Shown here: in pieces, positions 4,665 to 24,625 of the stretch
Layout: every line of letters begins with the position of its first letter
Numbering within the stretch: position 1 is the first letter of the stretch
Source: Sulfobacillus sp.
GTDB lineage: Bacteria; Bacillota; Sulfobacillia; Sulfobacillales; Sulfobacillaceae
Direction: 5' to 3'
Assembly (NCBI GenBank): GCA_027309085.1
Contig: DAIDDL010000008.1
Span: 1 to 64,000 of the forward strand
Length of the DNA: 64,000 nt
Translations under genes and position numbers: made by a program
Notes under the pieces: generated by a model
The model's input: the letters and a program-made list of their open reading frames with translations, nothing else
Told to the model about the DNA's origin: nothing
The model's database searches: none

Positions 4665-5489
4665 GTGAATGGTCGCCCGACGGCAAGATCACCCATGGTG
4701 GTGAACGGATCCATAGGTCCCGAGACGAATGTGATAGGCGTGGTCATTCCGACTTATAACGAAGTCGAGAATATTGATCCATTAGTGAATGGGCTATTGA
4801 GCAGGGAATCACTTCACGTCATTTTTATTGATGACGGATCTACCGATGGGACCCAGGAATGTATTAAAGAATGGGAAAATCGCGAACCTAGCCGCGTTTT
4901 TTTATTGGCACGAGATCATAAGCTTGGACTGGCAACGGCTTATCTTACAGGATTCCATTATCTTATGACAAACCCTTCTATCAGATGGATTGCTCAGATG
5001 GATGCTGATGGCTCTCACAATGTTGATGACCTTTTCAAGATGGTTGCCGTGGGTTCTACAGGGTATGACCTTGTTGTTGGGTCGCGTTATGTTGATGGTG
5101 GACAGACGGTAAACTGGGCACGGATGCGACGCTGGGTGTCAAGAGCAGGATCGTTATACAGTAGCTTCCTACTCCAGTGCTCAGTAAATGATATGACCGG
5201 AGGGTTTAAATTATGGGATCGGGACTTACTGCGAAATCTTCCGCTAGAGGCTGTTAGGTCTACTGGATATGGTTTTCAGATAGAAATGAATTATTTGGCA
5301 ATGTTGGCCGGTGCTTGCGTGACCGAAGTCCCTATAACCTTTCGAGAACGCATACACGGAAAATCAAAAATGTCCTGGAAAATAGCTCTTGAAGCATTAA
5401 TCATGGTTTGGCGACTACGAATGCACCGAATGAAGCTTCAAGGTCGGATTGACCAGAATGCTAGAGTGATTAACTTAAGGCGAACGTAA
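4665..5489 (+). CDS. Family 2 glycosyltransferase, polyprenyl-phosphate mannosyltransferase (DPM1)-like
   Basis: 274 aa (GTG start after a GGGGGGAG-rich stretch; ATG 4695 is an alternative). GT-A signatures are clear: 'VVIPTYNEVENI' at about residue 25, 'IDDGSTDGT' about 55, 'QMDADGSH' (DxD) about 110, 'VGSRYVDGG' about 140, and a C-terminal 'ERIHGKSKMSWKIALEA'. These match enzymes that load a sugar from a nucleotide donor onto a polyprenyl phosphate at the cytoplasmic membrane face. There is no C-terminal membrane domain. The next gene, a many-spanning protein, could be the acceptor-side glycosyltransferase. The base composition is visibly more AT-rich than its neighbours, pointing to horizontal origin. 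Confidence 0.85.
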   Translation: MNGRPTARSPMVVNGSIGPETNVIGVVIPTYNEVENIDPLVNGLLSRESLHVIFIDDGSTDGTQECIKEWENREPSRVFLLARDHKLGLATAYLTGFHYLMTNPSIRWIAQMDADGSHNVDDLFKMVAVGSTGYDLVVGSRYVDGGQTVNWARMRRWVSRAGSLYSSFLLQCSVNDMTGGFKLWDRDLLRNLPLEAVRSTGYGFQIEMNYLAMLAGACVTEVPITFRERIHGKSKMSWKIALEALIMVWRLRMHRMKLQGRIDQNARVINLRRT

Positions 5490-5561: not shown

Positions 5562-7202
5562 ATGAGCGCTATGCCGAAATCGCTTCAAAGGAAAAATACT
5601 TCGTCGTCCCCTAGCCCAGAAAGCGAAGGCTCTGGCCTGAGGAAATCGCGGTTGAATGAACGGAGCATTATGGCAATCGGTACATTGCTATTGTACATTG
5701 GACTTGGTGCTTATTTGACATTTCACGTACACTATTATTCAGGAGATTCTGCATCCCGCGTTGCCAATGCCTATTACGTGATTTTCGGACGGAATGCGCA
5801 TTTAGGAGCTGTTGGCTTTGTGTGGAATCCTTTACCTAGTATATTCGAACTGCCTTTCGTATCCCTATATTCATTTTGGCCAGCACTAGTAAGTAAAGCA
5901 TTTGCTGGAGATATCGTTTCTGCGATTTTTGGAACGATAGGTGTCCTAGCGCTTATGAGAATATTGAATAATTTACGAGCCCCTAGGTTTGGAGTTATAC
6001 TGATCGCTGTCGTGTACGCGCTTAATCCATTAATCGCTCTCTATGCAGCTAATGGTATGTCTGACTTGATGTTCGTATCCTGCACGTTGGCCAGTTTTAG
6101 CGGTGTGTTAGATTATCTGACCACTAATTCTCTGAGTCGACTGAGCGCGGGCGCTTTTTGGATTGCCATAGGATTTGGAATGCGTTACGGGGCTGTGCCC
6201 TTTGGGGCGTTTATGATTATCGGGTTAATTATCGGATTGTTGGGCCGCGTAAAACCATCTCGCTGGATGGGGGCGGCCGTTATCCTGGGCGCCCCGGTCG
6301 TTTACGCAGGAGGTTTGTGGATGTATTTTAGTTGGATGATAATGAAAAATCCACTCTATTTCCTAGACTCATCCTACGGGAATTTGGCCCAAACCTCTAC
6401 GGGTACATACGTAACGCGGAGCACTACATTGGCCATGCATCATGTGCTGGGAACGCTCCTATACGTGGGCCACTTCACCTTTCTCTTTTGGCCTATTCTT
6501 CTCGGTATTCCTCTGACGGCGTTCTTTTTATTTGGAACCAAACGTGATCCGCGTGCTGCTATTTTATTAGCGGGAACTCTTGGGGCTGTGACCTTGGAGT
6601 TAATATTTGTCTACAAGGGAAGCCTTGCTCCATGGGATCGGTTTTATATAAGTTTCATTCCGAATGGGATTCTGTTGTGTGCTTTTGGTATATCCAAGGT
6701 CACAAAAAGTTACACAGACTTTACTAAATACCTGATTTGGTTTGTGGCCGTTTTGGTCTTTGCTGCGGGCGACGTGGGGACTGTGCTGTCTCTCCAGACG
6801 AAGGCTCTGGGGCATCCCGATGGGCGTGTCATTGATACCGCGTGGGCTGGAAAGATTTATCCGGTCGATCCATTCCACTCTTCCCATGCCATCATTCGCT
6901 ACCTTTCCGATCATCCTCACCTCACAGTTCTTGTTGACACGTTTCGAGGCTATTCGCTCGTGATGCGCGCTCCTCATCTGAACCAATTTGTTATTGACTC
7001 TGACTATGATTTTCAGGAGATTCTCCATAACCCCAGAGGACGTGTGGATGCCTTTCTGGTCCCGGAACCATCGGGTGTAGGAAAGCTTGATGCAATAAAT
7101 AGGGCGTGGCCGGGAATGTGGTCAGGGCACGTGCAGTGGGCTATTTTGATTAAGTCTTTTCCGAACTGGCGACTGTATGCCATAACGGAAAACGCTCCCT
7201 GA
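5562..7202 (+). CDS. Polytopic membrane protein, PMT/GT39-like glycosyltransferase
   Basis: 546 aa with roughly ten to twelve hydrophobic helices. The first periplasmic loop carries 'YYSGDSASRVANAYY', with acidic residues placed as in the Asp-containing first loop of dolichol/polyprenol-phosphate-dependent (GT-C) glycosyltransferases. The C-terminal soluble part (after about residue 420) contains 'LVDTFRGYSLVMRAPHLN'. A GGGAGAAAG site lies just before the ATG. It follows the DPM1-like gene by 72 nt and shares its AT-rich composition, so both were probably acquired together and act on the same lipid-linked sugar. The acceptor is unknown; exopolysaccharide or protein glycosylation are both possible. 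Confidence 0.68.
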   Translation: MSAMPKSLQRKNTSSSPSPESEGSGLRKSRLNERSIMAIGTLLLYIGLGAYLTFHVHYYSGDSASRVANAYYVIFGRNAHLGAVGFVWNPLPSIFELPFVSLYSFWPALVSKAFAGDIVSAIFGTIGVLALMRILNNLRAPRFGVILIAVVYALNPLIALYAANGMSDLMFVSCTLASFSGVLDYLTTNSLSRLSAGAFWIAIGFGMRYGAVPFGAFMIIGLIIGLLGRVKPSRWMGAAVILGAPVVYAGGLWMYFSWMIMKNPLYFLDSSYGNLAQTSTGTYVTRSTTLAMHHVLGTLLYVGHFTFLFWPILLGIPLTAFFLFGTKRDPRAAILLAGTLGAVTLELIFVYKGSLAPWDRFYISFIPNGILLCAFGISKVTKSYTDFTKYLIWFVAVLVFAAGDVGTVLSLQTKALGHPDGRVIDTAWAGKIYPVDPFHSSHAIIRYLSDHPHLTVLVDTFRGYSLVMRAPHLNQFVIDSDYDFQEILHNPRGRVDAFLVPEPSGVGKLDAINRAWPGMWSGHVQWAILIKSFPNWRLYAITENAP

Positions 7203-7318: not shown

Positions 7319-9313
7319 CTATGAACCCGAACTTATTGTCACAGGAATAATATGTGACGCCAGCCCTTTATAATTGACTATTTGAATGGTCGCCGTGCCT
7401 GGTACCAGTGCTGGCCCAGACAATCCATCGGGAATAACAAGAGAGATGATATTGTTGTGCCACGAAATAATATGAACCTTATAGAAGTTCTGAGGAGCCC
7501 CGTAATTTATTCCGTTTTGACTGATAAGCACGTAGCCTTGTCCTTGGGCGGTGCCGAAATCAGAGCCAGTAACAGTAAGAGGAGAGCCCGGCCGCAGTGT
7601 GCCCGTCTCTATTGATGCATTTAGTTGAGGCGTTGGAACAATGGTGAACGGCTCCGTGTTGGAGACTATCCCGTCATCTGTTGCCAATTCTACAGTGGCT
7701 GAACCATTTTTCAAGCCGGGACCTGAAATGCCGTTGGGAATAGTGAACGTCACGGCTGTAGGATTCCACTCGGTAACGGCAATTCGATAAACATTGCCTG
7801 GCCCGCCATAGTTGACATTATTCTGAGATACTTGAATATAGGCGGGGGTTTTCATCGAGGTGCCGAAATGCAGCCCGTGAAGGACAACAGACTCCCCATC
7901 GTAGACTCTCCCGAGGCTCTCAATAATTGGTGCTTGGTGATAGGCAGTCGCGGAACTCACGGTCTGTGGAGCGGGATTTTGACTGGAAGAGAGCGAGACA
8001 CCTGGACCTGTCAGCGTAGTCGTTGAAAGGGATGCTCCAGCGGCATTGATAGTCTGGCCGTCGACGGTGATGGATTCTGGTGAAGGGCTTTGATTGATAA
8101 GGAATAGCGTATTGCCAGCGTTGCTGCTGACTTGCCCCACCACAAACGTGCCGGTACTCCATGTACGGAGAAGACCTCCATTGCCGATAGCGCTCATGTA
8201 CTGGGATAAGGCTTGCCCGGACGGATACAGTGTATTGGCCGCGAGTTGTGGCGCCAGACCGTCTCCTGAGAGTGCAAACAGGCCAAAGGGCTGGCTAGCG
8301 TCCGTGGCTACGGGCCATTGTGCGGTGGCCCCATGCGCTTGACCGTCGTAGCTCCAAATAAATAACTTATTGGCGCCATAAGATCTCCACAACATGGCGC
8401 TTTCGACCATGGCTGCTCCATAGATGGCACTGGTCGACTGAGATCCCGGTTGTCCATAGGGATTGTACTCTGTCACCCACGTCTGGATATTTTTGGCCAG
8501 CGGAGCCGGAACGTTAGCTGAAATCTCTGCATCAACATAGTTCATGGCGCTGGAAATATAATTGGGAATTTCGGAGAGCAATTCCGAATCCGAGACGGTT
8601 GAAGAAATCGGGTAGTCGTGCACGCTTAGGAAATTTATATAGGGCGCGTCGGTCCGCAACACAGTCTGGTTCCAACTGCGGCTGTATGATCCCGTTCCCA
8701 AAGAAAAGGATACCCCCACTTTCATCGATGGGTCAACGGTGTGTATGGCCTGAGCAATTTGGACAACGCTCTGGGCATAATAGGCAGCTGAATCTGAGGG
8801 ATTCAGGTTAGCCGAAAAATCCCATGGGCCGTACTCTTCGCTGCCAATGACGATGGCCGTAATAGGGAGGTGATGCTGCGTGATGTACTCTGTCAAGTTG
8901 GTAGCATCCTGAGCATCTCCGCCACCAGTAAACGTAGGATTTTCATCATAGTTAAAGATAAATAGGCCGGTGTTTCCGGTGGATTCCAATATCCGTCCCC
9001 AGTCGTTCAGAGATACGGCTCCTTGACCACCGGTGCGGAACGAATTGGTTACCCAACTCCACTGGTTGTCATTGGGGAATTGTTGCATGCCCATCCCGAG
9101 TGTCTCCAGGGTAGGGATAGTGGATGGCAAGTTAAGTTGACTGTCGTATGAAAAGACGTCAATTCCATAATCCCCCTTAGCCACAGTCGTTGTCAGGGAA
9201 GAGGGAGAGCTCAACATAGGTCCAGCTGCTAAAGAAACGGGACTACCCACGGAAAAATAGGATAGCGGGAGAAGCACAGCAACGGCCGCAGCCAATCGTG
9301 TCATCAGTGTCAT
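7319..9313 (-). CDS. Secreted glycoside-hydrolase-like protein with C-terminal IPT/TIG-type domains, under a c-di-GMP riboswitch
   Basis: 664 aa from ATG 9313, chosen because AAAGGAAG lies 8 nt upstream; the track's longer ORF (to 9418) runs into the riboswitch. Signal peptide 'LAAAVAVLLPLSYFSVGSP'. Residues about 40-400 look like a TIM-barrel glycoside hydrolase of the arabinofuranosidase/GH51-like type, with 'VIGSEEYGPWDF' as candidate acid/base region and 'WVTEYNPYG' as candidate nucleophile region. Two similar C-terminal segments ('YIQVSQNNVNYGGPGN', 'YVLISQNGINYGAPQN') resemble IPT/TIG Ig-like repeats. The product is exported and probably processes or binds exopolysaccharide. Expression is predicted to respond to c-di-GMP through the upstream GEMM-I element. 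Confidence 0.75.
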   Translation of the reverse strand: MTLMTRLAAAVAVLLPLSYFSVGSPVSLAAGPMLSSPSSLTTTVAKGDYGIDVFSYDSQLNLPSTIPTLETLGMGMQQFPNDNQWSWVTNSFRTGGQGAVSLNDWGRILESTGNTGLFIFNYDENPTFTGGGDAQDATNLTEYITQHHLPITAIVIGSEEYGPWDFSANLNPSDSAAYYAQSVVQIAQAIHTVDPSMKVGVSFSLGTGSYSRSWNQTVLRTDAPYINFLSVHDYPISSTVSDSELLSEIPNYISSAMNYVDAEISANVPAPLAKNIQTWVTEYNPYGQPGSQSTSAIYGAAMVESAMLWRSYGANKLFIWSYDGQAHGATAQWPVATDASQPFGLFALSGDGLAPQLAANTLYPSGQALSQYMSAIGNGGLLRTWSTGTFVVGQVSSNAGNTLFLINQSPSPESITVDGQTINAAGASLSTTTLTGPGVSLSSSQNPAPQTVSSATAYHQAPIIESLGRVYDGESVVLHGLHFGTSMKTPAYIQVSQNNVNYGGPGNVYRIAVTEWNPTAVTFTIPNGISGPGLKNGSATVELATDDGIVSNTEPFTIVPTPQLNASIETGTLRPGSPLTVTGSDFGTAQGQGYVLISQNGINYGAPQNFYKVHIISWHNNIISLVIPDGLSGPALVPGTATIQIVNYKGLASHIIPVTISSGS

Positions 9314-9327
9314 TGGGTTTCTTCCTT

Positions 9328-9377
9328 TCATGTCCGACGACATGAAACGAGACCGTCCCTGAAGCGGGATGGTCTCA
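9328..9377 (-). promoter_or_regulatory. Expression platform hairpins of the riboswitch
   Basis: Two hairpins lie between aptamer and start codon. The first is GAGACCATCCC / GGGACGGTCTC (9350-9377). The second is TTTCATGTC / GGACATGAAA (9328-9349), whose 3' arm runs directly into the AAAGGAAG ribosome binding site. This suggests translational control by site occlusion. Confidence 0.55.
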
Positions 9378-9394
9378 AACCCAATGTCCCGTTT

Positions 9395-9480
9395 CGGCAA
9401 CTGGCTGGCATTTACCATCGTAGGTAAGAAGCCCCTCTAGTTTTGCGTCCCTGTCTTTCGACTAGGTTTGCCCTTTTCGT
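9395..9480 (-). promoter_or_regulatory. Cyclic di-GMP-I (GEMM-I) riboswitch aptamer
   Basis: On the minus strand the order of conserved GEMM-I elements is present: AAAAGGGCAAACC, a GAAA tetraloop hairpin (TAGTCGAAAGACAG), GGGACGCAAAACTA, a second helix with GGGGC, then ATGGTAA and GCCAGCCAGTTGCCG. The GNRA tetraloop, its receptor and the CGCAAA ligand-pocket strand all match the established class. It sits 80 nt upstream of the glycoside-hydrolase-like gene. The promoter is not clear, though the 9481-9561 stretch is AT-rich. Confidence 0.92.
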
Positions 9481-9561
9481 CCGTTTTCATGTTTCACTTG
9501 GAACACTACTTCCAATAATTTCTAGTCATATATTAGTGCAATGCAAACTGTTTTGCTACAT

Positions 9562-9843: not shown

Positions 9844-11738
9844 GGACAGGGGCTCAAAATTAGTGACTACAACCAGGATTTCATGGCGGTGACAACGGAT
9901 TGCATGGGGCGGTCTTCCAAGACCGCGTCACACTGGAGCGCCGACACATAGGCGCGTTGACTGGGCGTGGGTTCGGTGATCGTGAGGCGGGTTTGGTCCG
10001 TGGATTTCACGCGCAGCCGATTGATCTGGCTGGACGCCAAGGCTTTCAGCACCGTGGAGGGCGATTCCGTATGCTTATGCTGACGGAGCCGGACTTCCAT
10101 GGTGTTGTAGAGGTCATATGCCAGTACACACGCCATTACGTGGGCGCGAATACGTTGGGCCCGCGTCACAAAGAGCGGGCGTAAGGCGAGGGGCGATTGG
10201 ATTTCATGGAAGGCTTCCTCGACGCGATTCTTGCGTCGATACCAGGCAATGATGTCCGACGTGGCTAAGGAGTCTGTCGGCGCATTCGTCTGAAAGCAGG
10301 TGACCCCAAACAGCCGCAGCGCCGCAGAATCGAGGGACCAGGCGATTTGCCAGGATTGAACAGTCGTACGCCCCCGGGGAATAGAGAGGCTCATGAGGTG
10401 ATACTGGACGATGTCGGTGATGTGTTTGTGACGCAGGAGATCCTGCACCGTCCGCTCGAGGGTCTCCCGCTGACGACTCCTTTTCGCTGCGGCCAGTTCG
10501 GTGTTCTTGGTGGCCATCCACGTCTCAATGTCTTGCACCGCCTTCGCTTGCAGGGTGTCTTCGAGATGATAGCGCTGAGCATCGAAAGCCACGACGTACC
10601 GGCGTGCGTCGACAGTCCATTCCCGGTACCAGAGCGTCGCATCCGGATCATAAGGGACCATGTGCCGGTCTTTCACGGTCTCCTGCCAATGATCGGGGTC
10701 CACGGCGGCGGGCCACGCCGTGGCCCAGAACGGCAAGCTCGCCAGGGCATCGCGGTCGACGGCGGAAAGGTAGACATGCTGTGCCGCGTCAATCGCCGCC
10801 AATTTGGCGGGCGGATACCATTCCCCGGTCAAAAACCAAAACACAGGCCCCGAGAGAGCCGCTGCTCCAAATCCTTGACGACCGTCTGCACGGTCGTGAC
10901 ATCCGGGGTATTTCCCGGCCACACCTGCCAGTAAATGGGGGACCCCGTGGCCGTGATCAGCAACCCGATCACGATCTGCGTGCGGTCCGGGCGATGATCC
11001 CGGGAGTATCCGGCCTTGGCTAACGGACTGGTCGTCCCCTCCACATAGGTCGAAGTGAGATCGTAGAAAAAGGTGGGAGCTGGGGCGTCACCCGACGGGG
11101 GCAGATGATGGGCGACCAAGGCTTGTTGCACGGCGGCTTCACGGGTCGCCATCCGGTCCAACACCCGGTACACCGCATAAGGATCCAGAGCGTCCGGGCT
11201 GATCGCATAATAGGCGGGCAACACGGTGGAGGCGGCCCACGAGTGGAGATGGATTTTCGCTTGCGGGTCCAGGAGGCGGTTCAGGACAAGAGCTTCCACC
11301 CAAAAAGCGTCGGGCCCCCAGAACGACCTCCACCCGCTTTCCTACCAGAGCGTATGCCCGACCGCCACATCCAAGTAGGCCGCATGTTGTGTGACCGCAA
11401 TGTCCGTAAACGGCACACTGACCCACTCCGTATCGTGGGTGACGGCGAGGACGGCACGAATTTGTTGGATTTGCTCCGCCGTCAAGTCTCCCAGCGACAA
11501 CAGCACGCGATGTTTCACTCGTCCGCCTTCCCGAAAGGACTCCACGAGTTTGTAATGCGTATAAGTTTTCCCGCGAATCGTGGTGGAAGTTTGGGTTAAG
11601 AACATCTGGTGTCTCTCGTGGCAATCCCGCCGCGGGCCCGCGGCGACCCCGCTCTCTGGTCCCCCATGCGTAGCACCCTGGTGGCCCCCCTCTGTTGACC
11701 ATTTAAGGGAAGCGTAGCGCAAAAGACGCTCCCTGTCC
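9844..11738 (-). mobile_element. IS1634-family insertion sequence, inactive
   Basis: About 1.9 kb, bounded by imperfect inverted repeats: GGACAGGGGCTC at the left and CGCTCCCTGTCC at the right (reverse complement GGACAGGGAGCG). It carries one minus-strand transposase split by at least two frame disruptions. No target-site duplication could be read. Confidence 0.72.
9867..11605 (-). pseudogene. Frameshifted IS1634-family transposase
   Basis: Three consecutive minus-strand frames rebuild one transposase. The N-terminus starts at 11605 ('TTIRGKTYTHYKLVESFR') and stops at 11342. The middle (11299-10829) holds 'FFYDLTSTYVEGTTSPLAK', the first catalytic Asp region of the DDE fold, plus 'RDHRPDRTQIVIGL'. 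The C-terminal frame (10922-9867) has 'WYRRKNRVEEAFHEIQSPL', the Y-(2)-R-(3)-E-type signature of IS4-superfamily enzymes. Breaks occur around 11300-11345 and 10830-10920. Programmed frameshifting is not known for this family, so the copy is most likely dead. Confidence 0.82.
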
Positions 11739-12331: not shown

Positions 12332-12556
12332 ATGAAAGCATTACGACGCGGCACAGTGATGGCCGGTGGGGTGGCAGTATTTTTGATCGCTATGCTCGTC
12401 ATGTTTTGGACCATTGACATTCTGCCCTTGGTGCTCTTTGGAGGAGTTATCGTCGTCTATGCATTCTTGTCTTCACGCCAAATGAGCCAGCGTAAAACAC
12501 GCGCCACTGGTATGGAACCTCACAGCAAGAAAAACGGAAAGGACGTTGTCTCATGA
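12332..12556 (+). CDS. Small two-helix membrane protein, translationally coupled to the glycosyltransferase
   Basis: 74 aa; GAGGTGA lies 5 nt before the ATG. Two hydrophobic segments ('GGVAVFLIAMLVMFWTI', 'LPLVLFGGVIVVYAFL') are followed by a basic tail. Its stop overlaps the next start (ATGA), so it is co-translated with the MshEN-glycosyltransferase. It could be a subunit or stabiliser of a synthase complex, as small membrane proteins accompany other c-di-GMP-dependent synthases, but that role is inferred from position only. Confidence 0.65.
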   Translation: MKALRRGTVMAGGVAVFLIAMLVMFWTIDILPLVLFGGVIVVYAFLSSRQMSQRKTRATGMEPHSKKNGKDVVS

Positions 12557-14796
12557 GCCTTGAACGGGTCTACTCGGAGGACATGGACAGCAGGATTGAT
12601 GCACCAGCCATCGAAGACGTTGATCTGTTTCCTGTCACTGGACCCGGGGGCCACGTCACCGACCCTGTCGACCCTAGTGCCGCATTCATTCTTGATTCCA
12701 CTGTAGCTCAGCAGGCTGGTGTCATTCCCTTCCGTTTTGAAAACGGCCATGTCTGTGTGGCGGCGGTCTTTCCCCTAAGTAAAGCGGCACAAGACGCTAT
12801 TAAGCGAATTGCCGCTCCAGTGAAAATTTATCGTTCCAGCGCTAGCGCCATTACGCACAGTCACCTGCGGGTCATGGGGGCTAAAGGGCATATGCGGGCC
12901 GCGACGCCATTCGGCGAGGTGGCCAAGAGTCTTGGCTTGACGACCGACGCGGACATTGATGACGCTTTAACTGAACAGGCGAAGAAGGGAGGGCGGCTTG
13001 GGCAGATTTTGGTCAATCACCAGGTGCTGACTTACTGGGATGTAGCAAGCGTGCTGTCGGCACAAACGGCGCTTCCCCTCGTTAATTTGCTCGCCCAGGA
13101 TGTTGCTCACATCGCGTTCACACCCAATACAGCGAAAGTATGGGAAGCATTTTCGGAAGATTTCTGGCGTCGCCACCGGATGGCGCCCATAGGGTGGGAA
13201 AGCCACGCAATTATTTTGGCGGTTGAGAATCCTACGCAGTGGCAAGGGATCGCTGAAGTCGCGCGTCAGTTGCAAAGTCCGGTGAACACTATGATTTCTG
13301 GTAAAAGGGACATTGAAGCAGTTCTCGACGAACGATATCGGCAAGAAGACATGACAACGAGCCGAGATAGCCTGCTCATCTTTCGCCCAGAGGACTCCGC
13401 CAAACAGACGGTCACACGCCGTCAGGGGATTGCCGCCGCAAGTATAGTGGTGATGGTGGCAGGGGCAATGATATGGAAACTGGACCTGACATTCGCTGTG
13501 CTCAGCAGTCTTCTCATTATTATGTACTCTGTGACCATTGGGTACCGATTGTGGATGATTCGTCAAGGCACGGACATTCCTGCTGAATCGCTCAGCACCT
13601 CAGATGAATTGGCTTCTCTGGACGACCGGGATTTGCCGGTGTACACGATTTTAGTTCCGGCTCGCGAAGAAGCGGCGGTTTTGCCAGCACTGACCAAGGC
13701 GCTTGATGAACTGGACTATCCCAAAGACCGCTTGGACGTCAAACTGTTGCTGGAAGAAGATGATGATGAGACCATTCATGCTGCACGCTCAGCGAACTTG
13801 CCTAGTTTCATTGACATCGTCATCGTGCCAGCGGATAATCCCCGGACAAAACCTAAGGCTTGCAACTACGGTTTGCTACGGGCGCGGGGAGAATATGTGA
13901 CCATTTTTGATGCTGAGGATATACCTGAACCGCTGCAACTCAAGAAAGCTATTCTGGCGTTTCGCAAACATGATGATAAACTGGCGTGTGTTCAAGCGAA
14001 ACTATCCTACTTCAACGCAAACCAAAATCTTTTGACCCGCTGGTTTACGGCCGAATATGCGTCCTGGTTTGATTTGTTTTTGCCATCGTTGTACGCAGCC
14101 AAGTTGCCCATCCCCTTGGGGGGCACGTCGAATCACTTTCGCACAGACCGATTACGCGAACTAGGTGGATGGGATCCTTATAATGTCACGGAAGATGCGG
14201 ACCTCGGCATACGTCTGTACAAGGCGGGTTATTATGCCTCGGTCATTGATTCCAATACCTATGAAGAAGCGAATTCAGAGTTTGTCAACTGGGTTCGCCA
14301 GCGTTCACGCTGGATTAAAGGATATATTCAGACATGGTTGGTGCATATGCGCCACCCTCTGAAGCTCTACCAGTCCATGGGGCCCCGCGGATTCTGGGGG
14401 TTTCAGATGTCGATTTTAGGGACTCCTCTCATGTTTCTTCTGAACCCTTTATACTGGTTTTTAACGAGTTTGTGGTTTATGACGAACTGGCATATAATTC
14501 CCTCTCTATTTCCACCGGGCATCTATTACTTGGGAATGATCAATTTGCTTGGAGGAAACTTTATTTTTACCTATATCAATGCACTAGGCGCGGCCAAACG
14601 TGGTAACTGGGAGCTGGTACCTTACACACTGCTGACGCCTATCTACTGGAGCATGATGTCTTTAGCCTCTTGGAAAGCCTTGCTGCAATTGATTACCAGA
14701 CCGTCGCATTGGGAAAAGACGATTCACGGGTTAAGTGCTCCTCATCAACTCCAGACAATTGCGAACGCGGCGCCATTACAGGAATCGACAATGTAA
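12553..14796 (+). CDS. Membrane family 2 glycosyltransferase with N-terminal MshEN-type c-di-GMP-binding domain
   Basis: 747 aa. Residues about 50-230 resemble the N-terminal domain of type II secretion ATPases. They include 'GGRLGQILVNHQVLTYWDV ... LSAQ' at about 146-170, close to the RLGxxLVxxGxxxxxxLxxxLxxQ half-motif of MshEN domains, which bind c-di-GMP. Two transmembrane helices (about 290-335) precede a processive GT2 domain: 'VPAREEAAVLPAL' about 367, 'DAED' about 453 (DxD), 'TED' about 546, and 'QRSRWIKG' about 582 (the Q/RxxRW motif of cellulose- and hyaluronan-type synthases). Several C-terminal helices could form a secretion channel. The likely job is c-di-GMP-activated synthesis and export of a polysaccharide. 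NfrB-type proteins also combine GT2 and MshEN, but in another order. Confidence 0.82.
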   Translation: MSLERVYSEDMDSRIDAPAIEDVDLFPVTGPGGHVTDPVDPSAAFILDSTVAQQAGVIPFRFENGHVCVAAVFPLSKAAQDAIKRIAAPVKIYRSSASAITHSHLRVMGAKGHMRAATPFGEVAKSLGLTTDADIDDALTEQAKKGGRLGQILVNHQVLTYWDVASVLSAQTALPLVNLLAQDVAHIAFTPNTAKVWEAFSEDFWRRHRMAPIGWESHAIILAVENPTQWQGIAEVARQLQSPVNTMISGKRDIEAVLDERYRQEDMTTSRDSLLIFRPEDSAKQTVTRRQGIAAASIVVMVAGAMIWKLDLTFAVLSSLLIIMYSVTIGYRLWMIRQGTDIPAESLSTSDELASLDDRDLPVYTILVPAREEAAVLPALTKALDELDYPKDRLDVKLLLEEDDDETIHAARSANLPSFIDIVIVPADNPRTKPKACNYGLLRARGEYVTIFDAEDIPEPLQLKKAILAFRKHDDKLACVQAKLSYFNANQNLLTRWFTAEYASWFDLFLPSLYAAKLPIPLGGTSNHFRTDRLRELGGWDPYNVTEDADLGIRLYKAGYYASVIDSNTYEEANSEFVNWVRQRSRWIKGYIQTWLVHMRHPLKLYQSMGPRGFWGFQMSILGTPLMFLLNPLYWFLTSLWFMTNWHIIPSLFPPGIYYLGMINLLGGNFIFTYINALGAAKRGNWELVPYTLLTPIYWSMMSLASWKALLQLITRPSHWEKTIHGLSAPHQLQTIANAAPLQESTM

Positions 14797-15636: not shown

Positions 15637-16710
15637 TTACGAGAGAGCGTTTTGAATCACCTTGGCACTAACATGACCGATTGGATCGAATGAAGGCCCA
15701 TGGCCGGACCGGGGCATCATGACGCCCCACCAATAAAGGCCAAGGGAATGTCCCTGCCATGCTGTCATAGTGGCGGTGTAATAGCGTGCTTGCACGGACC
15801 AATCCGTTGGCCCTGGGGGATTCCACACCCAAGGAGTTTCCCACGCCCCAGCTTTGGGCATGACTCCCACTTCTGTGATGACAAGGTTAGGGATTTTCGC
15901 CCTTTGCGCTACCCATGGTTGCCATGCCTTGACCAATGCAGGCACTGAGCCAGAAGAGGTCGAGAGGGGGTAATAGGCATCAAGGCCAATCCATGTTAGG
16001 CTATGTGTCCATGACGGCAAGGCTGCCAAGCTGGGGCTGTTCCAATTGAAGGAATACAGCATCGGTCCGTGAAAATAGTCGCGAATTTGCCCGATGGTGT
16101 TCTCCCACAACGTTCCGTCATCCTCGAGAGAAGTCAACTCTGTGCCGACATCAAAAGCGCCGACATGATCTTGTTGTGCCAAGATGGCGTATGGAATCAG
16201 TGCTCGGGTATAGCTGCTGAACCAAGCGGGCGCCGAAGTAGGGACAATGTCTCCACGCCAGTGGCCAGACGGCGTCAATGTTCGTTCATCCAGCATCGGA
16301 CGAAGCATGACCGATAGATGGTCCTGGTACGCTTGCTGAATGATGCGGTTTATCACCGCCGGAGGGGGTGTAAAGCTGACAGGCCCAATATTGGTGGACT
16401 GCCAATTGGTCTGTCCGAAAGGAATGACCAACGCTACAACACGTACGTGAAGTTGAGCGACTTTCTGGAGAACCGTATCAATGTCCACAGTGGATGGAGT
16501 GCCCCATACTTCCACGTTGATTCCTGATTGAAAGGCAGGTAAAGGGGGGGCGGTTGCCGGCTTCACCAGAGCTGCCGATTTTGCAGGCAGAGAGGACTTT
16601 ACAGGCCGTTCTGGATGGGTGCTGTGCGAAGAAACCGCAGACGCCGTGCCGCAGCCAGCCAACAAAAGTCCGAAAGTTGTCGCTAACAATATGTTGGTGT
16701 ACTTGTACAT
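15637..16710 (-). CDS. Lipoprotein with GH113-like glycoside hydrolase domain
   Basis: 357 aa from ATG 16710, supported by AGGGGGT 6 nt upstream; the track's longer start adds a leader without a signal sequence. Lipobox 'LLLAGC' near residue 18. The domain has a TIM-barrel pattern typical of GH113 mannanase-like enzymes: 'GINVEVWG' near the N-terminus, 'MLRPMLDE', 'DVGTELTSLE' (candidate acid/base Glu), 'WIGLDAYYPL' and 'LVITEVGVMP' (candidate nucleophile Glu). It would act on polysaccharide outside the membrane. It sits between the exosortase operon and the c-di-GMP glycosyltransferase, consistent with trimming or remodelling the polymer. Substrate not known. Confidence 0.78.
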   Translation of the reverse strand: MYKYTNILLATTFGLLLAGCGTASAVSSHSTHPERPVKSSLPAKSAALVKPATAPPLPAFQSGINVEVWGTPSTVDIDTVLQKVAQLHVRVVALVIPFGQTNWQSTNIGPVSFTPPPAVINRIIQQAYQDHLSVMLRPMLDERTLTPSGHWRGDIVPTSAPAWFSSYTRALIPYAILAQQDHVGAFDVGTELTSLEDDGTLWENTIGQIRDYFHGPMLYSFNWNSPSLAALPSWTHSLTWIGLDAYYPLSTSSGSVPALVKAWQPWVAQRAKIPNLVITEVGVMPKAGAWETPWVWNPPGPTDWSVQARYYTATMTAWQGHSLGLYWWGVMMPRSGHGPSFDPIGHVSAKVIQNALS

Positions 16711-16963
16711 GAGATACCCCCTAAATCGCTTGAGGCCCTGGGTTGCTCTGCCCAACTTCCAACAGGGAGAACGCTCGGTCTTCTTTACAATTCCCTCTTG
16801 GTCAATCACGGCACAGTGGGAGGAGAAATTGCCGCCAACACCAATGTATCGCAAAGAGATGTGTTGTGCCATGGGGCTCATCACGGCCAGCGTGGAATCC
16901 GGGCGAAGGGCGCAGACTCGAACCCCATTTACCTCCATATTCGCAATGCCCGTGTCACAAGAA

Positions 16964-17029: not shown

Positions 17030-18655
17030 TTAAGCTTGTGGCTTAAGACTTTGATGCAAAATTTGCTCCGCTAGCCCAATGAGTCCAGACTTGGTGGAGG
17101 CGATATTGCCGTGCCATGTGCCGCGGGTTTGAGGCGCCACCATGGCTTCTGCTACTGTCAAGGGTTCCAGTGATGCGGATGCTGCAGAAACGGCGGTCTG
17201 CGGAGCGCTTTGCGGGAATGCGGCCAGAGACCACCGCAGGTAGCGTACCCCATCCGGCTGCTTGACGGCATCCGTCCACTCCACGTCGACATAGGTGGAA
17301 CGCGGACCTCCCACATAGTTAGCGGGAAGTGTAACGGCGTACACGGTAGCCACCACTCCCGGCACGAGCTGGAAGGACTGCGCGGCTGCAATATTGTCGC
17401 CGTGATACAATAGACAGTTATGAAATCCGTAAGCGGCGAGCATGCTGGCACTGGCAGCGCTCCACACCTCAACCATGGCCTCACGCCCAGTGTTGGTACT
17501 GACATACATATCGGCCAGTGTGGCCGAATGAGGACCTAATATCGACGACTCGTTGGCGTGATAGACGGGCGTGTGTACGAATCCGTTTAAACCCGGAATC
17601 ATGGCTGCCAGCGCATTGTGGTGAATCGGCTGGGGCTTGCCAAAGCTGCCTTTTGTCAGCGAGAACAGGGGTGCTAGCAAGAAGAACACAATACCGGATA
17701 AAACAATGGCGGCTGTGAGCCGTCCCACGCCAGCGCGGGGTATACCAGTTTGGGCTTGGGTTCCCGGCATAAAGAGGCCAAAGGGTTTGATCAGAGCTAT
17801 CAGCAGGACCGTCAGTATGGCAAAGAGAACGAATCCCAGTACGGGATGAATGTAGGCGAAGGTGAAATGCGGGCCGATCACATGGACCGCCAGCACAATG
17901 GCCACCAGCCGGAACCAGTTCAGCACCAGCGCCCCGGTGAGGGCAATGACTGTCAGGTAGGCTTTTGACTGCCACCTTCCGTTCAACAGAAACCATATGA
18001 CGGGAATAACAATAGCCGAACCCAGCAAACTGTCTGCGCCGCTGCAGGCTTGCGCCACAATCACAGGAACTTCCAAACTGCGGTAGGCTATATCAAAGGT
18101 TCCAAAAGGCTGAATGGCATGAATCCAGCTGAACTGAGATGTCGAGACTTGCAGAATCCGGATTGCCCAGTTGACTAAGATTGTTTGTGTTTCGTTGGCA
18201 ATCGCTTCGAACACTGGAGGCCATACCAGGAGTAGATAGATCAAGGGGGCCATCACCTTGCGTGTGGCTCCGATCCCCCAAAATAGCCAGGTCATGGCAA
18301 GAATCCACAGGGGCCAGAGCAACAGGCCGGCGTGGTCAAACACAAATGCGGTGGGCCATCTCGCTGGGCCTACAACCAATGCCAACCCGGTAATGGCGGC
18401 GAGGCTCACGCCTAAAATAGCATCGAGCTCGCTGTCATCCATCCCTTCTGCGGGAAGCGCCAACAAGTTCCAAGATGCCCACCCTATGGCCAGAATCGGT
18501 ATCCAAATCAAATCGGCAATGGGGGTGTCCGCTAAAATGTTCTGCCATAGAGGCGAGGCATAGGCTAAAAGGGGAGCGGTGGAGAGCCCCACCCAGAGAA
18601 GCCAAAACAGGGTGAGACTCCGCCGCTGGATGTTCGAGACCGTACTCCGCATCAT
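17030..18655 (-). CDS. Exosortase with fused C-terminal extracytoplasmic (EpsI-like) domain
   Basis: 541 aa. About eight to nine membrane helices in residues 15-300 are followed by a soluble C-terminal domain of about 200 residues. The exosortase catalytic trio is present: Cys204 in 'AQACSGADSLLGS', Arg249 in 'LVLNWFRLVAIVL' and His270 in 'YIHPVLGF'. Exosortases are membrane transpeptidase-like enzymes that recognise a short C-terminal motif-TM-basic tail on secreted proteins and usually live in exopolysaccharide loci. The C-terminal part ('VEVWSAASASMLAAYGFHN') resembles the EpsI/methanolan-type domain sometimes fused to exosortases. The start overlaps the upstream gene's stop (ATGA). Likely substrates are the two proteins ending in LPEVPxAAGxPL nearby. 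Confidence 0.86.
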   Translation of the reverse strand: MMRSTVSNIQRRSLTLFWLLWVGLSTAPLLAYASPLWQNILADTPIADLIWIPILAIGWASWNLLALPAEGMDDSELDAILGVSLAAITGLALVVGPARWPTAFVFDHAGLLLWPLWILAMTWLFWGIGATRKVMAPLIYLLLVWPPVFEAIANETQTILVNWAIRILQVSTSQFSWIHAIQPFGTFDIAYRSLEVPVIVAQACSGADSLLGSAIVIPVIWFLLNGRWQSKAYLTVIALTGALVLNWFRLVAIVLAVHVIGPHFTFAYIHPVLGFVLFAILTVLLIALIKPFGLFMPGTQAQTGIPRAGVGRLTAAIVLSGIVFFLLAPLFSLTKGSFGKPQPIHHNALAAMIPGLNGFVHTPVYHANESSILGPHSATLADMYVSTNTGREAMVEVWSAASASMLAAYGFHNCLLYHGDNIAAAQSFQLVPGVVATVYAVTLPANYVGGPRSTYVDVEWTDAVKQPDGVRYLRWSLAAFPQSAPQTAVSAASASLEPLTVAEAMVAPQTRGTWHGNIASTKSGLIGLAEQILHQSLKPQA

Positions 18656-18918
18656 GACCGTGCTTGCCGGCGCTGTTTGGCCGTATAGAAGCGCTGCTCT
18701 GCGCCCGTCAGTGTTTGGTGGGAAGTCATTTGATATTGGCGCTCGGAGTTTGATATAGAAAGTTCAATCGGCACAGGAATGCTTTTCGGGCCCAGTGTTT
18801 TGCCTGTTATATGAACGAGCGACGACTTATGGAATTCGGCAATTGTTCTGTCGCGCCATGCATAGAAGGGAATTTTTCCATGTGGCATACCGACGACTTC
18901 TGAGATTGGTGATTTCAT
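18652..18918 (-). CDS. Hypothetical protein coupled to exosortase
   Basis: 88 aa, GGAAGG ribosome binding site, no signal peptide or membrane helix. The C-terminus is basic (KQRRQARS). It overlaps the exosortase start by four bases, so it is translated with it. No family recognised. A cytoplasmic partner or regulator of the exosortase system is possible. Confidence 0.55.
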   Translation of the reverse strand: MKSPISEVVGMPHGKIPFYAWRDRTIAEFHKSSLVHITGKTLGPKSIPVPIELSISNSERQYQMTSHQTLTGAEQRFYTAKQRRQARS

Positions 18919-19068: not shown

Positions 19069-19809
19069 TTAAACGGAGGATTGGGAATCAGGCAAAGTCA
19101 GGGAGGCACTAGTGGGTGACTGGAGAACACGGCGCTCCCTGTCAATTCCGGGATGAAGCTGGTAAGGGGCCCGCTGCCGGGACTTGCGGGCGCGCTTTTC
19201 CTTATACATGGCTTGGTCGGCCCGGTCTACTAGAAGCTGGAGAGAGTCTCCCGGTTCCCACTGGGCAACTCCGGCGGAAAACTGCAATCCAGGCTCAGCT
19301 CGGCGCAAGCGGTAAAGTGTCTCGCAGGCCGTCTTCCGCAACGTATTGGGTAGGGCAAGAATGAACTCATCTCCCGCCCACCGGATAAGTTGGTCGGTGC
19401 GCCGGATGTTGCCGAGCACCATGTGGACCAGATGACACAGCAGGCGGTCACCTGCCTTGTGGCCATAGGCATCATTGGTCTGTTTCAGATTGTCGACGTC
19501 GATGAAAATGATCGAAAACGGATTCTCTTCACGCGACTGCTGCAGCATGTGCAGCAGCAAAATTTCACCTGTCCGCCGCGTGAGTGCCCCTGTTAAGGAG
19601 TCCCACTCTTCGAGGTGGGGCGCTGACTCGTCCGCCGCTGCAATGGTCCCGTAGCGGCGCAGAAAGTCGGTAAAGACCAAGCGCACCGTGTGGTAAATTT
19701 CTCCGCGTGTAATCTGCAAGGCGGCCACCATGTCATCGATGGAAGCCCCTTGCGCCATCAGCGCGACCGCCTGGTCGTAATGCGAATCAGTGTTCGAATG
19801 GGTGGGCAT
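19069..19809 (-). CDS. Diguanylate cyclase (GGDEF) with N-terminal HTH-like region
   Basis: 246 aa; AAGGAGGC before the ATG. Residues 8-55 form a short helical, HTH-like segment ('QGASIDDMVAALQITRGEIY'). The GGDEF domain follows: 'IIFIDVDNLKQTNDAYGHKAGD' (metal and substrate Asp/Asn) and the active-site loop 'WAGDEF', an AGDEF variant known to be compatible with activity. No RxxD inhibitory site is evident. It would make c-di-GMP in the cytoplasm. It stands directly upstream of the exosortase operon in the same orientation, so it may supply the signal for the riboswitch and MshEN glycosyltransferase. Confidence 0.85.
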   Translation of the reverse strand: MPTHSNTDSHYDQAVALMAQGASIDDMVAALQITRGEIYHTVRLVFTDFLRRYGTIAAADESAPHLEEWDSLTGALTRRTGEILLLHMLQQSREENPFSIIFIDVDNLKQTNDAYGHKAGDRLLCHLVHMVLGNIRRTDQLIRWAGDEFILALPNTLRKTACETLYRLRRAEPGLQFSAGVAQWEPGDSLQLLVDRADQAMYKEKRARKSRQRAPYQLHPGIDRERRVLQSPTSASLTLPDSQSSV

Positions 19810-20134: not shown

Positions 20135-20587
20135 TTAATTCTGAGCGCGATGGCGCCATGCGGAGAAAGCCCAGGGAAGCACCAGGACTAAAGGGATTCC
20201 TGCTGCCCATGGCACTTCAGGCAGCTCTCCCGTTGCAAAGTTTGCCTCTTGCATTTCAATTCCCGTATTGGACCATGTGTCGTTCAAAGGAAGGGTAATC
20301 GTGGATGTCGTGTACTGTCCTGATTTCGTCACATCGCCATCGTATGTCGGAAGCGGTGTTATATCTGACGGACTACTTTTGGAAAAAGCGTAGACACTGA
20401 CATATTCCCCAACATCAAGACTTCCCCATGTCCAGGTAGCTGTTCCGGTCGTGGGACTTGTTTCCGTAATGGCTATCGTGCCTTCTTGAGTTGAGGTCGA
20501 TCCGGCCATTGCCAAACTTCCCAGTGCCAGTACGGCTGCAGCGGCAATTCCCACAACACCGGAGAGGCGCCATAGTGGTGACGTCAT
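20135..20587 (-). CDS. Small secreted protein with LPEVP C-terminal sorting-like tail (protein 1)
   Basis: 150 aa. Signal peptide 'GVVGIAAAAVLALGSLAMA', then a short beta-rich domain with Thr/Ser-rich stretches. The C-terminus reads 'LPEVPWAAGIPLVLVL' from residue 122, followed by a hydrophobic helix and 'WRHRAQN'. This motif-helix-basic layout is that of exosortase substrates (PEP-CTERM-like), with LPEVP in place of the usual PEP box. A second intact gene (25380-26027) shares LPEVPxAAGxPLV. A tandem GAGAC repeat (20712-20729) and a TATAAT (20644-20649) lie upstream. It is likely processed and displayed or released by the exosortase at 17030. Confidence 0.72.
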   Translation of the reverse strand: MTSPLWRLSGVVGIAAAAVLALGSLAMAGSTSTQEGTIAITETSPTTGTATWTWGSLDVGEYVSVYAFSKSSPSDITPLPTYDGDVTKSGQYTTSTITLPLNDTWSNTGIEMQEANFATGELPEVPWAAGIPLVLVLPWAFSAWRHRAQN

Positions 20588-20974: not shown

Positions 20975-23900
20975 CTGTCCACCACCAAACAACTCTGGTC
21001 CAGCATGATTCTGGCTGGATCCTTGGCAACCACTCTCGTCTCCCCTCTGGCTTACGCAGCCTCTCTGCCCGCAGCCCTTACGAATTTGTCCCTGACCGCG
21101 AGCGGTCAGGCGGCTGCCGGTCAGACAGTGACGTTCACAGCAACCTCTCAGGGGTCTCCAGCGGAGTACCAGTTTTGGACTGAGACGGCGCAAGGCTGGA
21201 AAATGATTCAAGACTATTCGCCCACAAGACAGGTCAGTCTGCCTCTTGAGGCAGGAAGCTACATTGTCGCCGTCTATGCGCTGAGCGCGGCAGCGGTTCA
21301 ATCTGGTTCGTTTAGCCAGGCGCTGGTCCGCACGCTGATTGTCAATGTGAATAGCGCGGTTCACCTTACGGCTCCGGCGACCGGCACTCAAAACCAAGAG
21401 ATGAATATTGAAGCGTCCGCCACCAATCTGATAACGCCCGTCTATCAATTCTGGGTGGAAAATCCGCAAGGACAGTGGACGTCCAGTGGGGGGTACCAGC
21501 CGGGGAGCGGGTACGTTTATACGCCGCCCGAAGCAGGGACGTACCGGACCATTGTGTACGCCAAGGATCCTGATGCTCCCAACAATGCCCAGGATGCGGT
21601 CTGGAGCCAGGCGCAGACATTTACCGTGGCTCCCGCAGGGAGTGCCGCGGGACCTTTGACGGCGGCACTTATCAATCCTCTGCCGGCTCTCGACAATCCG
21701 GAGGCCTTGCTGCTTGGACAAATCGCCGAAGTCCGGACAGTGGTGACCGGAGCCAACGGCAATCCCATAGCTGATGTGCCCGTGGTCTTTACCGCCACCA
21801 ACGATTCCAATCCTGCAGACCACGTGACGTTTCCCCAAGGGCTGAACGGCAATGCCGTGACCAATGCCGAGGGCATTGCCACCACTACTATCACCGTGAC
21901 TAATCCTGACGACAGCACGCCTCAGGCCCTGGCCGCCGACCCTTCTGCGGTCACTGCCGTGAGCTACCAGGTATCCGTGCCCTCTGCCTTCGGGACCTCT
22001 GTGGGCCAGGGACAGGTCCTGTTTGCCGCTGTCAATGAGAGCGGCACGGTGGTTAGCGGGTCAACAGGTCCCGTAGTGACGAGCCAGCGGGTGGGAACGG
22101 TGGCGCGTTCGCAACAGTATGCTTCTTTCCAGGCGGTCAGCAGCCCCGGGCAAGTGCCCATGCGGGCGAGTCTGGCGGCACAGTTTATTGTGCCGCAAGG
22201 ATCTGCTTCCTCCAACATTACGGACATCAGCCAGTCTTCGGGGGCCTACGGCCCCGGCAGCAACTGGCAGTCCACACCCGTCAGCATCGCATCTGGATTC
22301 GCAGCCGCCACCGTGCAGGTGGCATCATTGGGACTCTCGTCCGGAACCACCCTGACGATGACCTACACGCCGTCAGACGGCTCTGAGCCTTATACCCGCG
22401 TCCTGACCGGCCCACTCAGCGCATCCAATTTTGGTCTGCAAATCCCGGCGCAAAGTGCGGGAGGGGTCCTGACGTTTGCCTTGGTGGCCCCATCGGAGGT
22501 CGATGCCCAAAATGCGACCGGTGTCGCTTTGCAGTCGCTGACCATACGCAGCGGGGGTGCCGCAGCCGTGCAGGATGTGGCCGTACCTCCAGCCGATGTG
22601 GCGTGGACCGCTTCTCCCGTGGAGCTTACGGCATTCAGCCCCCTGACCGCGACCCAAGCGCAAGAGGACCTGGGCAGCCAGTACAGTGCGGCGTTGCAGT
22701 ATCAGGCGGCTGTGCCGGTATATCCGGAAGTCGGGGATGGCGTGGTAGAGTCACTCAGCGGGACCACAGTCGCCGGAGCATACTGGCTGCCTTCCCATAA
22801 TAATGGCTTCGGTCAAAATGTGCTGGTGGGAGGCCAGAAGGCGGTAGCAGTGCCCCCTTCCGAAGCCTTAACCACTCCAGCTGTGAGCCTTGGGTCAGGG
22901 GGGACGGTCAGTGCGGGACAGGCCGGCAGCGTGGAGCTTCAGGCCACATTGCAGATACCGGGGGTGAGTTTTGCTTTGCCTGGGCTCTACTCTTATGCAG
23001 CATTTGTTCCCGCATCTTCAGATGCGGCCGACGCGCCCGGCTACGCCCTGTCCGGGCAAACGGTCATGCTGACAGCACAGGTGAGAGACGGGAATGGCAA
23101 TCTGGTGCCCGCTGGCACCCCTGTGACATGGCAGGTAAGCGGGCCTGGGGTGCAGGTCATTGAACAGCAGAACCAGACGGGGCCCGAGGGCACCGCATCT
23201 CTTGTCGTGGAAGGCGGTGGCAGCGTGCAGGCGCTGATCTCGGCATTCAGCCAGGGCTATGACACGAGTGTCAGCGATGCGGGCGGCCGGGGATCCGAAA
23301 TTGGCCTGCAGTGGCTACCGGTCAGCCTGAGTTACACCCCGCCGGGAGCGTCCCTAATCACGGTGGCAAACGGCTTTGCCACCGCTCCGCCTTTGAGCCT
23401 CACAGCCGGCCGGCTCTACCAGTTCAGTGTGCAGGCCCTGGCCGGAACCCTCCCTATAAGCAATCTGCCTTTCACTGTCAGTGGAACCGGAAATGGGACC
23501 GTCAGCGCATCTAGCGCCACCTCCAATAACCAAGGACTAATCACGTTTAGCGGCACAGCGGACACTCCCGGAAGTCAAAGTGTCGCACTGGCTTTGAATT
23601 CTGACTTGCCGGGCACCGTGCTGATTGGCGGTCTGCCCGATGTAGGCCAAGGACCCACATCGGACTTTGCCCACCTGACCTTTCCCCTGCTCTGGCAGTC
23701 AGCGGGCGGGACGGAGTCGGTCCAGTGGTCGCCGGTTCCGCTGGCATTGGCGGCCACAGGGCAAACCGCTTGGCTGACCGTCAGTGTGGACAGCCCGGAC
23801 GGGAACCCAGAGCCCGGGGTTCCCGTAGCGTTCTCATTGTCTGGACAGCAAACCGCCGTGCTGAGCGCCTCAGCTGTGACCACTAACGCTGCCGGCCTGG

Positions 23901-24625
23901 CGCAGGTCGGGGTGTCGGCGGGAACACTGGGGGAGAGTGATACGGTCGTTGCCCAGACGCCGGGAACTGCCCAGCCGATTACAGCAAACTTGACATGGGT
24001 GTCGCCTCCCGGTCCCAGTACTTTGGCTCCGGTGTCCGTGGAGCTGAACGCCGGGACCAGTCCCGGCCAACTGACCGTGAATTTTTCACGGAACCTGAAT
24101 CCCGCCTCCGTCCTTCCAGATGGCGCTCAGTTTTCCGTTACAGACATGACAACTCATGACGCTTACCAAATTGAGTCGGCCGAGTGCCAAGGATCCCAAG
24201 TCATTCTAACCCTGTCACCGCAAAATCCCCGCTTGCCTGCAGGAGACCCAGTGGCGGTGGCTGTGGCGGCTGTGACACAAGACGGCGTCACGACGCCGAT
24301 TACGGACAACTATCAGCGGCCATCCCAGGCGGGGCCTGTTACCCTCTTTGCTCCATCCTCCCCTACCATATCCACCGAACTGTCAGGCGGCAATCTGGTC
24401 CTGACGCTCGGTAACGGGTCATCGGGGATTGCTGCCGGCCAGTCAGTGGTGGTCGTGCCGTCGAATACAGCGGGAAGCGTGGGCGGACTAGCGGCTGGCG
24501 ACGTGTATAGCATGGTCACGCAGGCCGCCACGGGGACGGAAACTCTAAGCATTCCCTACACTGCAGAGGGCTCTGTGACTTTTTCCGTTTACTTTAACGG
24601 AATCGAGGCCACAGTAGCGGGATAG
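20975..24625 (+). CDS. Giant secreted Ig-like (Big-1/invasin-type) repeat protein, probable CTG start
   Basis: About 1216 aa. The ORF track starts at ATG 21005, which has no ribosome binding site and would cut the signal peptide. GGAGG at 20962-20966 is 8 nt before an in-frame CTG at 20975, giving 'STTKQLWSSMILAGSLATTLVSPLAYA', a normal signal peptide with a basic n-region. The mature part has several beta-sandwich-like modules; at least three resemble bacterial Ig-like Big-1 domains ('GQIAEVRTVVTGANGNPIAD', 'GQTVMLTAQVRDGNGNLVPA', 'GQTAWLTVSVDSPDGNPEPG'), each with the GxPVxFxxxG-type strand. No Cys-rich or sorting tail is present, so anchoring is unclear. Likely a surface adhesin or matrix protein. 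Confidence 0.78.
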   Translation: MSTTKQLWSSMILAGSLATTLVSPLAYAASLPAALTNLSLTASGQAAAGQTVTFTATSQGSPAEYQFWTETAQGWKMIQDYSPTRQVSLPLEAGSYIVAVYALSAAAVQSGSFSQALVRTLIVNVNSAVHLTAPATGTQNQEMNIEASATNLITPVYQFWVENPQGQWTSSGGYQPGSGYVYTPPEAGTYRTIVYAKDPDAPNNAQDAVWSQAQTFTVAPAGSAAGPLTAALINPLPALDNPEALLLGQIAEVRTVVTGANGNPIADVPVVFTATNDSNPADHVTFPQGLNGNAVTNAEGIATTTITVTNPDDSTPQALAADPSAVTAVSYQVSVPSAFGTSVGQGQVLFAAVNESGTVVSGSTGPVVTSQRVGTVARSQQYASFQAVSSPGQVPMRASLAAQFIVPQGSASSNITDISQSSGAYGPGSNWQSTPVSIASGFAAATVQVASLGLSSGTTLTMTYTPSDGSEPYTRVLTGPLSASNFGLQIPAQSAGGVLTFALVAPSEVDAQNATGVALQSLTIRSGGAAAVQDVAVPPADVAWTASPVELTAFSPLTATQAQEDLGSQYSAALQYQAAVPVYPEVGDGVVESLSGTTVAGAYWLPSHNNGFGQNVLVGGQKAVAVPPSEALTTPAVSLGSGGTVSAGQAGSVELQATLQIPGVSFALPGLYSYAAFVPASSDAADAPGYALSGQTVMLTAQVRDGNGNLVPAGTPVTWQVSGPGVQVIEQQNQTGPEGTASLVVEGGGSVQALISAFSQGYDTSVSDAGGRGSEIGLQWLPVSLSYTPPGASLITVANGFATAPPLSLTAGRLYQFSVQALAGTLPISNLPFTVSGTGNGTVSASSATSNNQGLITFSGTADTPGSQSVALALNSDLPGTVLIGGLPDVGQGPTSDFAHLTFPLLWQSAGGTESVQWSPVPLALAATGQTAWLTVSVDSPDGNPEPGVPVAFSLSGQQTAVLSASAVTTNAAGLAQVGVSAGTLGESDTVVAQTPGTAQPITANLTWVSPPGPSTLAPVSVELNAGTSPGQLTVNFSRNLNPASVLPDGAQFSVTDMTTHDAYQIESAECQGSQVILTLSPQNPRLPAGDPVAVAVAAVTQDGVTTPITDNYQRPSQAGPVTLFAPSSPTISTELSGGNLVLTLGNGSSGIAAGQSVVVVPSNTAGSVGGLAAGDVYSMVTQAATGTETLSIPYTAEGSVTFSVYFNGIEATVAG

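Follow-up and report, generated by a model that had tools for sequence, protein, structure and literature searches.

Wang et al. 2016 (PMC5013675) had already reported glycosyltransferases fused to an MshEN domain. In MshE, c-di-GMP is bound by two motifs of 24 residues each that stand 5 residues apart, and changes at the charged positions, including Arg9, cost at most about fivefold; XpsE is a known MshEN protein that does not bind the ligand (PMC5013675). NfrB of E. coli combines a GT2 glycosyltransferase with MshEN, and its c-di-GMP binding was shown (Kd 1 uM) and is needed for function (PMC8669469). Compared to the protein described here, however, the order of its domains is reversed (GT2 N-terminal, MshEN C-terminal) and it has a diderm outer-membrane partner, NfrA. 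Sfz2 belongs to the XagB-type Sfz1-Sfz6 system of stalk-forming Zetaproteobacteria and has an N-terminal EpsE-like T2SS domain (IPR007831, MshEN type) followed by GT2; its cluster resembles ours in holding a glycosyl hydrolase and in coming from iron oxidisers (PMC8250860). Its partner Sfz1 is BcsB-like, whereas the Sulfobacillus locus has a 74-aa hairpin and no BcsB, and adds an exosortase, a GT-C enzyme and a riboswitch.

Other systems share single features with the locus. BcsA-BcsB has the same processive GT2 fold and motifs and is activated by c-di-GMP, as we propose for the Sulfobacillus enzyme, but BcsA senses by PilZ and not by MshEN, and BcsB is required there. PgaC-PgaD and IcaA-IcaD likewise pair a GT2 synthase with a very small membrane protein whose gene adjoins that of the synthase, although MshEN is absent from them. 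PgaD is needed for PgaC activity (PMC8461298). In the PEP-CTERM/exosortase systems an EpsH-family enzyme is tied to polysaccharide genes and the sorting tag consists of PExP, a membrane helix and a basic end (PMC1569441).

We analysed by computation a 64,000-nucleotide stretch (the window) of a 4.49 Mb Sulfobacillus sp. genome, whose nearest named relative is S. thermotolerans Kr1 with about 71% identity across the synthase. An earlier note on this DNA had placed two open reading frames on the forward strand at 12332-12556 and 12553-14796, and both were found there. The second encodes an MshEN-GT2 polysaccharide synthase of 747 aa, as identified from the reading frame, Pfam and NCBIfam profiles, motifs and a structure model. 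Profile searches gave MshEN at E=4.2e-18 (65.5 bits against a cut-off of 23.1) and the GT2 family PF13632 at E=3.2e-25, and the Pfam search gave no match to PilZ, which bears out the reading that an MshEN domain, and not PilZ as in BcsA, is joined to a GT2 of the processive type. The GT2 catalytic core (residues 360-600, positions 13630-14352, forward strand) was assigned by Pfam, motifs and the folds of BcsA and hyaluronan synthase. It has all the catalytic motifs, namely D403/D404, DAED at 453-456 (DxD), TED at 546-548 and QRSRW at 583-587 (QxxRW), and the top fold matches of the full-length model (pLDDT 87) were BcsA and hyaluronan synthases. The CelA model reached 62 bits against a cut-off of 699 and the NCBIfam NfrB model 30.2 bits against 1170. 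The layout is thus present, but since NfrB (reversed order) and Sfz2 (same order) precede it, and Wang et al. 2016 had documented it, the fusion itself is not new. Our comparison with Sfz2 and XagB is based on the text of the paper and on the Mariprofundus homologue L011 (38-40% identity), not on the published Sfz2/XagB sequences.

The first reading frame (12332-12556, forward strand) encodes sm74, a 74-aa two-helix membrane protein which we propose as a small synthase subunit on account of its conserved motif, its co-occurrence with the synthase and its ATGA overlap. The homologues form a two-helix hairpin with the pattern FW...APL..F.G....Y..LSS. They were found in 20 of the 22 synthase-bearing genomes, so we regard the frame as a real gene, and in one of the 39 genomes without a synthase (Fisher 7e-13, a P value that overstates independence because the genomes share ancestry). 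This lone genome, G024, has its sm74 match on a contig that also bears a c-di-GMP-I riboswitch, and its synthase may be located off that contig. Against the earlier note's suggestion that the small protein may be an essential subunit, the synthase is present in the S. acidophilus type strain (G011) and no sm74 was recognisable there. PgaD, IcaD or any other known family was rejected for sm74, as it had no significant Pfam or NCBIfam match, and PgaD was not among the matches listed (25 of 52 families) for 22 sm74 members at E<=10.

The sm74 and synthase frames of the window share 4 bases (ATGA), and the same overlap was observed in seven other loci: S. thermotolerans, three Nocardioides and three more distant Sulfobacillia. 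Most Sulfobacillia have the sm74 gene closely behind that of the synthase, and three loci (L047, L052, L059) have it adjoining the GT-C gene and not the synthase. The note's claim of a small, translationally coupled membrane subunit stands as regards a conserved partner, but the coupled upstream position is one of several in which the gene occurs.

BcsB (PF03170) had no match in the window's genome, in G002, G003, G004 and G011, or in the three Nocardioides genomes tested. A BcsB-like protein does occur in the genomes of two Clostridium strains, a gammaproteobacterium, Mariprofundus, Paenarthrobacter and Leucobacter (weak matches in the last three); in at least five of them its gene adjoins that of the synthase, and no sm74-type hairpin was found in these loci at E<=1. 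Since the loci with a BcsB-like partner are without sm74, the simplest reading of this small sample is that the hairpin may substitute for BcsB. The S. acidophilus type strain has neither of the two.

We also considered that sm74 could pair with the GT-C (PMT_2) enzyme, or with the export or sorting apparatus, and not with the GT2 synthase. The PMT_2-like GT-C glycosyltransferase (5562-7202, forward strand; Pfam) occurs in 16 of 20 Sulfobacillia loci and also in Clostridium and Micrococcales loci. In about nine loci sm74 adjoins the GT-C gene, and in the three mentioned above it adjoins that gene alone. However, in about 11 loci, including every locus with the ATGA overlap, it adjoins the synthase alone, the GT-C gene of the window is about 5 kb away from sm74, and its complementarity with BcsB favours the synthase as the partner. 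We find a partnership with the GT-C enzyme rather unlikely and keep sm74 as a putative subunit of the synthase.

Next, we looked at the sensor domain. Half-motif I of MshEN (residues 119-142, positions 12907-12978, forward strand; PFGEVAKSLGLTTDADIDDALTEQ) keeps the equivalents of G11 and Q32 and has proline in place of R9. It is followed after the canonical 5-residue spacer by half-motif II (residues 148-171, positions 12994-13065, forward strand; RLGQILVNHQVLTYWDVASVLSAQ), in which the equivalents of R38, L39, G40, L58 and Q61 are kept, L54 is valine and the turn glycine G47 is replaced by glutamine. The hydrophobic contact positions L10, L25 and L54 are occupied by other hydrophobic residues, and the NCBIfam c-di-GMP motif model scored 37.2 bits, slightly below its cut-off of 38. 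Since GT2 dominates the top list of the full-length fold search, the N-terminal region was modelled separately for the MshEN fold search. The second half-motif, on whose presence in a structural model the earlier note had made its reading depend, was there: residues 120-172 form four confident helices. This MshEN_N bundle is sandwiched in the model by MshEN_C-like alpha/beta domains at residues ~36-108 and ~184-277. The N-terminal one (residues 36-108, positions 12658-12876, forward strand) was assigned from the structure models and a partial PilF match and the second from a Pfam stretch (residues 198-266, positions 13144-13350, forward strand). The top solved matches were PilF-GSPIIB and MshE (5htl) with c-di-GMP (E ~2e-7 to 4e-7, TMt 0.76-0.77; c-di-GMP-bound MshE, 5htl_B, E=4.2e-7, TMt 0.76), and the non-binding XpsE was a weaker fold match.

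Across 20 homologues from Sulfobacillia, the residues that make polar contacts with the ligand are kept in 19 (G11) or in all 20 (Q32, G40 and Q61 each), while Arg9, Arg38 and the turn glycines drift. Since these contacts are conserved and the fold matches c-di-GMP-bound PilF-GSPIIB and MshE, the MshEN domain of the window likely binds c-di-GMP. It could alternatively be a structural leftover that has lost its binding activity, in which case the synthase would be constitutive and the riboswitch described below the sole sensor of the signal. The replaced Arg9 and Gly47 of the window, the drift of Arg38 and both turn glycines in the relatives and the precedent of XpsE (PMC5013675) speak for this, as do the Nocardioides homologues, which have lost G11, Q32 and Q61 yet kept the fusion, so an MshEN domain can persist without its ligand contacts. 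However, in Sulfobacillia the polar-contact residues stay invariant or nearly so while their neighbours drift, and changes of the Arg9 type are tolerated in MshE within the limit given above (PMC5013675). We regard the leftover as improbable and a binding MshEN domain as the better account.

A second possible point of c-di-GMP action was found upstream of a neighbouring gene. A c-di-GMP-I riboswitch aptamer lies at 9393-9482 on the reverse strand (RF01051, 67.7 bits against a gathering score of 35) and precedes not the synthase but a gene for a secreted clan GH-A-type glycosidase-like protein with TIG domain(s) (7319-9313, reverse strand), assigned from weak, sub-threshold Pfam matches. The proposed start of this gene is at 9313; its longest reading frame starts at 9418. 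The predicted expression platform (9311-9386, reverse strand; -44 kcal/mol, z -5.6) folds into a stem, CAUUGGGUUU/AAACCCAAUG, that would bury the proposed start codon. The same stem is seen in S. thermotolerans, with one G-C changed to A-U on both sides relative to the window, and in the majority of the other loci a terminator-like hairpin stands 3' of the aptamer instead of a start-codon stem; neither fold decided between ON and OFF control. The riboswitch was upstream of the glycosidase-like gene in all 12 loci where this gene was fetched (some scored best with the related model RF03167). In three Sulfobacillus genomes (G002, G003, G004) it is the only RF01051 match; the window's genome has three c-di-GMP-I riboswitches, the others at G000:C130:3951-4033 and G000:C125:16862-16956. 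The interval from the glycosidase gene to the synthase pair holds a DDE transposase-like frame (9867-10922, reverse strand), a possible cause of local rearrangement.

In Clostridium carboxidivorans (L005:5699-14171) and C. drakei (L006) a c-di-GMP-II riboswitch stands before a compact same-strand run that holds the synthase, in C. carboxidivorans in the order NTP transferase, PMT, GtrB/GtrA, MshEN-GT2, BcsB. Judged by gene order, the Clostridium synthase is thus apparently in an operon behind this riboswitch. With c-di-GMP-I in Sulfobacillia and c-di-GMP-II in Clostridium, riboswitch control near the synthase is therefore seen with two unrelated classes.

The locus also encodes an exosortase of the EpsH family (17030-18655, reverse strand; PF09721 61.8 bits against 25.7, TIGR04178 47.3 against 23). 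An exosortase was found in 21 of the 22 synthase genomes and in 4 of the 39 others, about 190 kb away in G002 and G003. Two proteins on the reverse strand would be its substrates. One, a secreted protein at 20135-20587, ends in a PEVPWAAG sorting tag followed by a membrane helix and basic residues, and the other, at 25380-26027, is likewise recognised by its tag. Both tags fit PEVP[WYL]AA, of which the window's genome has six, and both proteins are probably processed by the neighbouring exosortase. The PEVP tag is present in 3-6 copies in each of five exosortase genomes and was absent from two genomes without an exosortase. Compared to the described PEP-CTERM systems, the host is a member of Bacillota and the PEVP[WY]AA tag is unrecognised by the NCBIfam sorting-signal models, none of which reaches its cut-off. 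In the literature searched, no paper named both "c-di-GMP riboswitch" and "exosortase".

These genes form a recurrent set. Across 20 Sulfobacillia loci we found the synthase together with sm74, a PEVP[WY]AA-tagged secreted protein, the GT-C enzyme (16 loci), the exosortase (16 loci) and the GH-A-type TIG protein (12 loci). The window further has a GT2 enzyme of the polyprenyl-phosphate-sugar synthase type (4665-5489, forward strand; Pfam, NCBIfam and relatives' loci), a GH113 (beta-mannanase family) protein (15637-16938, reverse strand; Pfam) and a GGDEF-domain protein of the AGDEF variant (19069-19809, reverse strand; Pfam and relatives' loci), a possible local diguanylate cyclase. The earlier note was right about the MshEN-GT2 protein and its small neighbour, but had not picked up the remaining parts of the locus: riboswitch, glycosidase, exosortase and tagged proteins, GT-C enzyme and GGDEF protein.

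Taken together, we think with good confidence that this is a synthase-dependent exopolysaccharide locus controlled by c-di-GMP. In the mechanism that we propose, the 747-aa protein would polymerise a sugar nucleotide at the cytoplasmic face and feed the chain out by way of its own membrane helices, like BcsA and hyaluronan synthase. The sm74 hairpin would pack on these helices and do the job of the BcsB anchor or of PgaD. Outside, the GT-C enzyme, supplied by the polyprenyl-phosphate-sugar GT2, would decorate the chain, secreted clan GH-A glycosidases (the riboswitch-linked one and GH113) would trim or release it, and the exosortase-processed PEVP-tagged proteins would enter the matrix. c-di-GMP would act at two points, on the enzyme via MshEN and on one glycosidase gene via the riboswitch. 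Since the synthase has a built-in sensor and a glycosidase gene at the same locus has its own riboswitch, one signal probably acts on the making and the trimming of the polymer in two different ways. That the glycan instead serves protein or cell-wall glycosylation, as the PMT_2-type enzyme, the polyprenyl-phosphate-sugar synthase and the exosortase-sorted secreted proteins might suggest, is very doubtful, since the GT2 has processive synthase motifs with BcsA and hyaluronan synthase as best folds and is accompanied by glycosidases, as in other synthase-dependent systems.

We propose only tentatively the broader view that MshEN-gated GT2 synthases are a class with interchangeable membrane partners, BcsB or a two-helix protein, and that in the acidophilic Bacillota of the Sulfobacillia one signal sets both synthesis, by MshEN activation, and the matching glycosidase, by the riboswitch, within an exosortase-linked matrix. 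As far as the literature searched shows, the hairpin as a partner and its complementarity with BcsB are new, and so are the control of the glycosidase by a riboswitch and the association with an exosortase. The locus would add mineral-leaching Bacillota to the bacteria with polysaccharide synthases gated by c-di-GMP, and would offer a natural example of a single second messenger that may influence synthesis through protein allostery and trimming through an RNA switch. It also suggests a minimal substitute for BcsB, which could make the reconstitution of such synthases simpler.

What a Sulfobacillus biofilm polysaccharide is made of was described only recently, and the exopolysaccharide of the S. 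acidophilus type strain is dominated by mannose (PMC13226494). The chromosome of this strain (G011:C1; PMC3558970) bears the locus. GH113 stands beside the synthase in the window, in two further loci (L002, L057) and in the gammaproteobacterium, and the Clostridium cluster includes a GDP-mannose-pyrophosphorylase-like gene. Because of these neighbours and the S. acidophilus composition, the polymer is possibly mannose-rich or mannan-type, a lead rather than a result. S. acidophilus, whose polymer composition is known, is also the strain without a recognisable sm74, with a changed G11 equivalent and with a second, diverged MshEN-GT2 synthase (G011:C1:674684-676516, 38% identity).

Three further reading frames of the window were noted. 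An 88-aa frame at 18652-18918 was rejected as a gene, since it matched no family and the relatives' loci lack a homologue. A PilZ-domain protein, one of three in the window's genome, is encoded at 40858-41448 on the reverse strand. A surface-type protein of 1206 aa with Big_1 domains is encoded at 21005-24625 on the forward strand and is present at the S. thermotolerans locus too.
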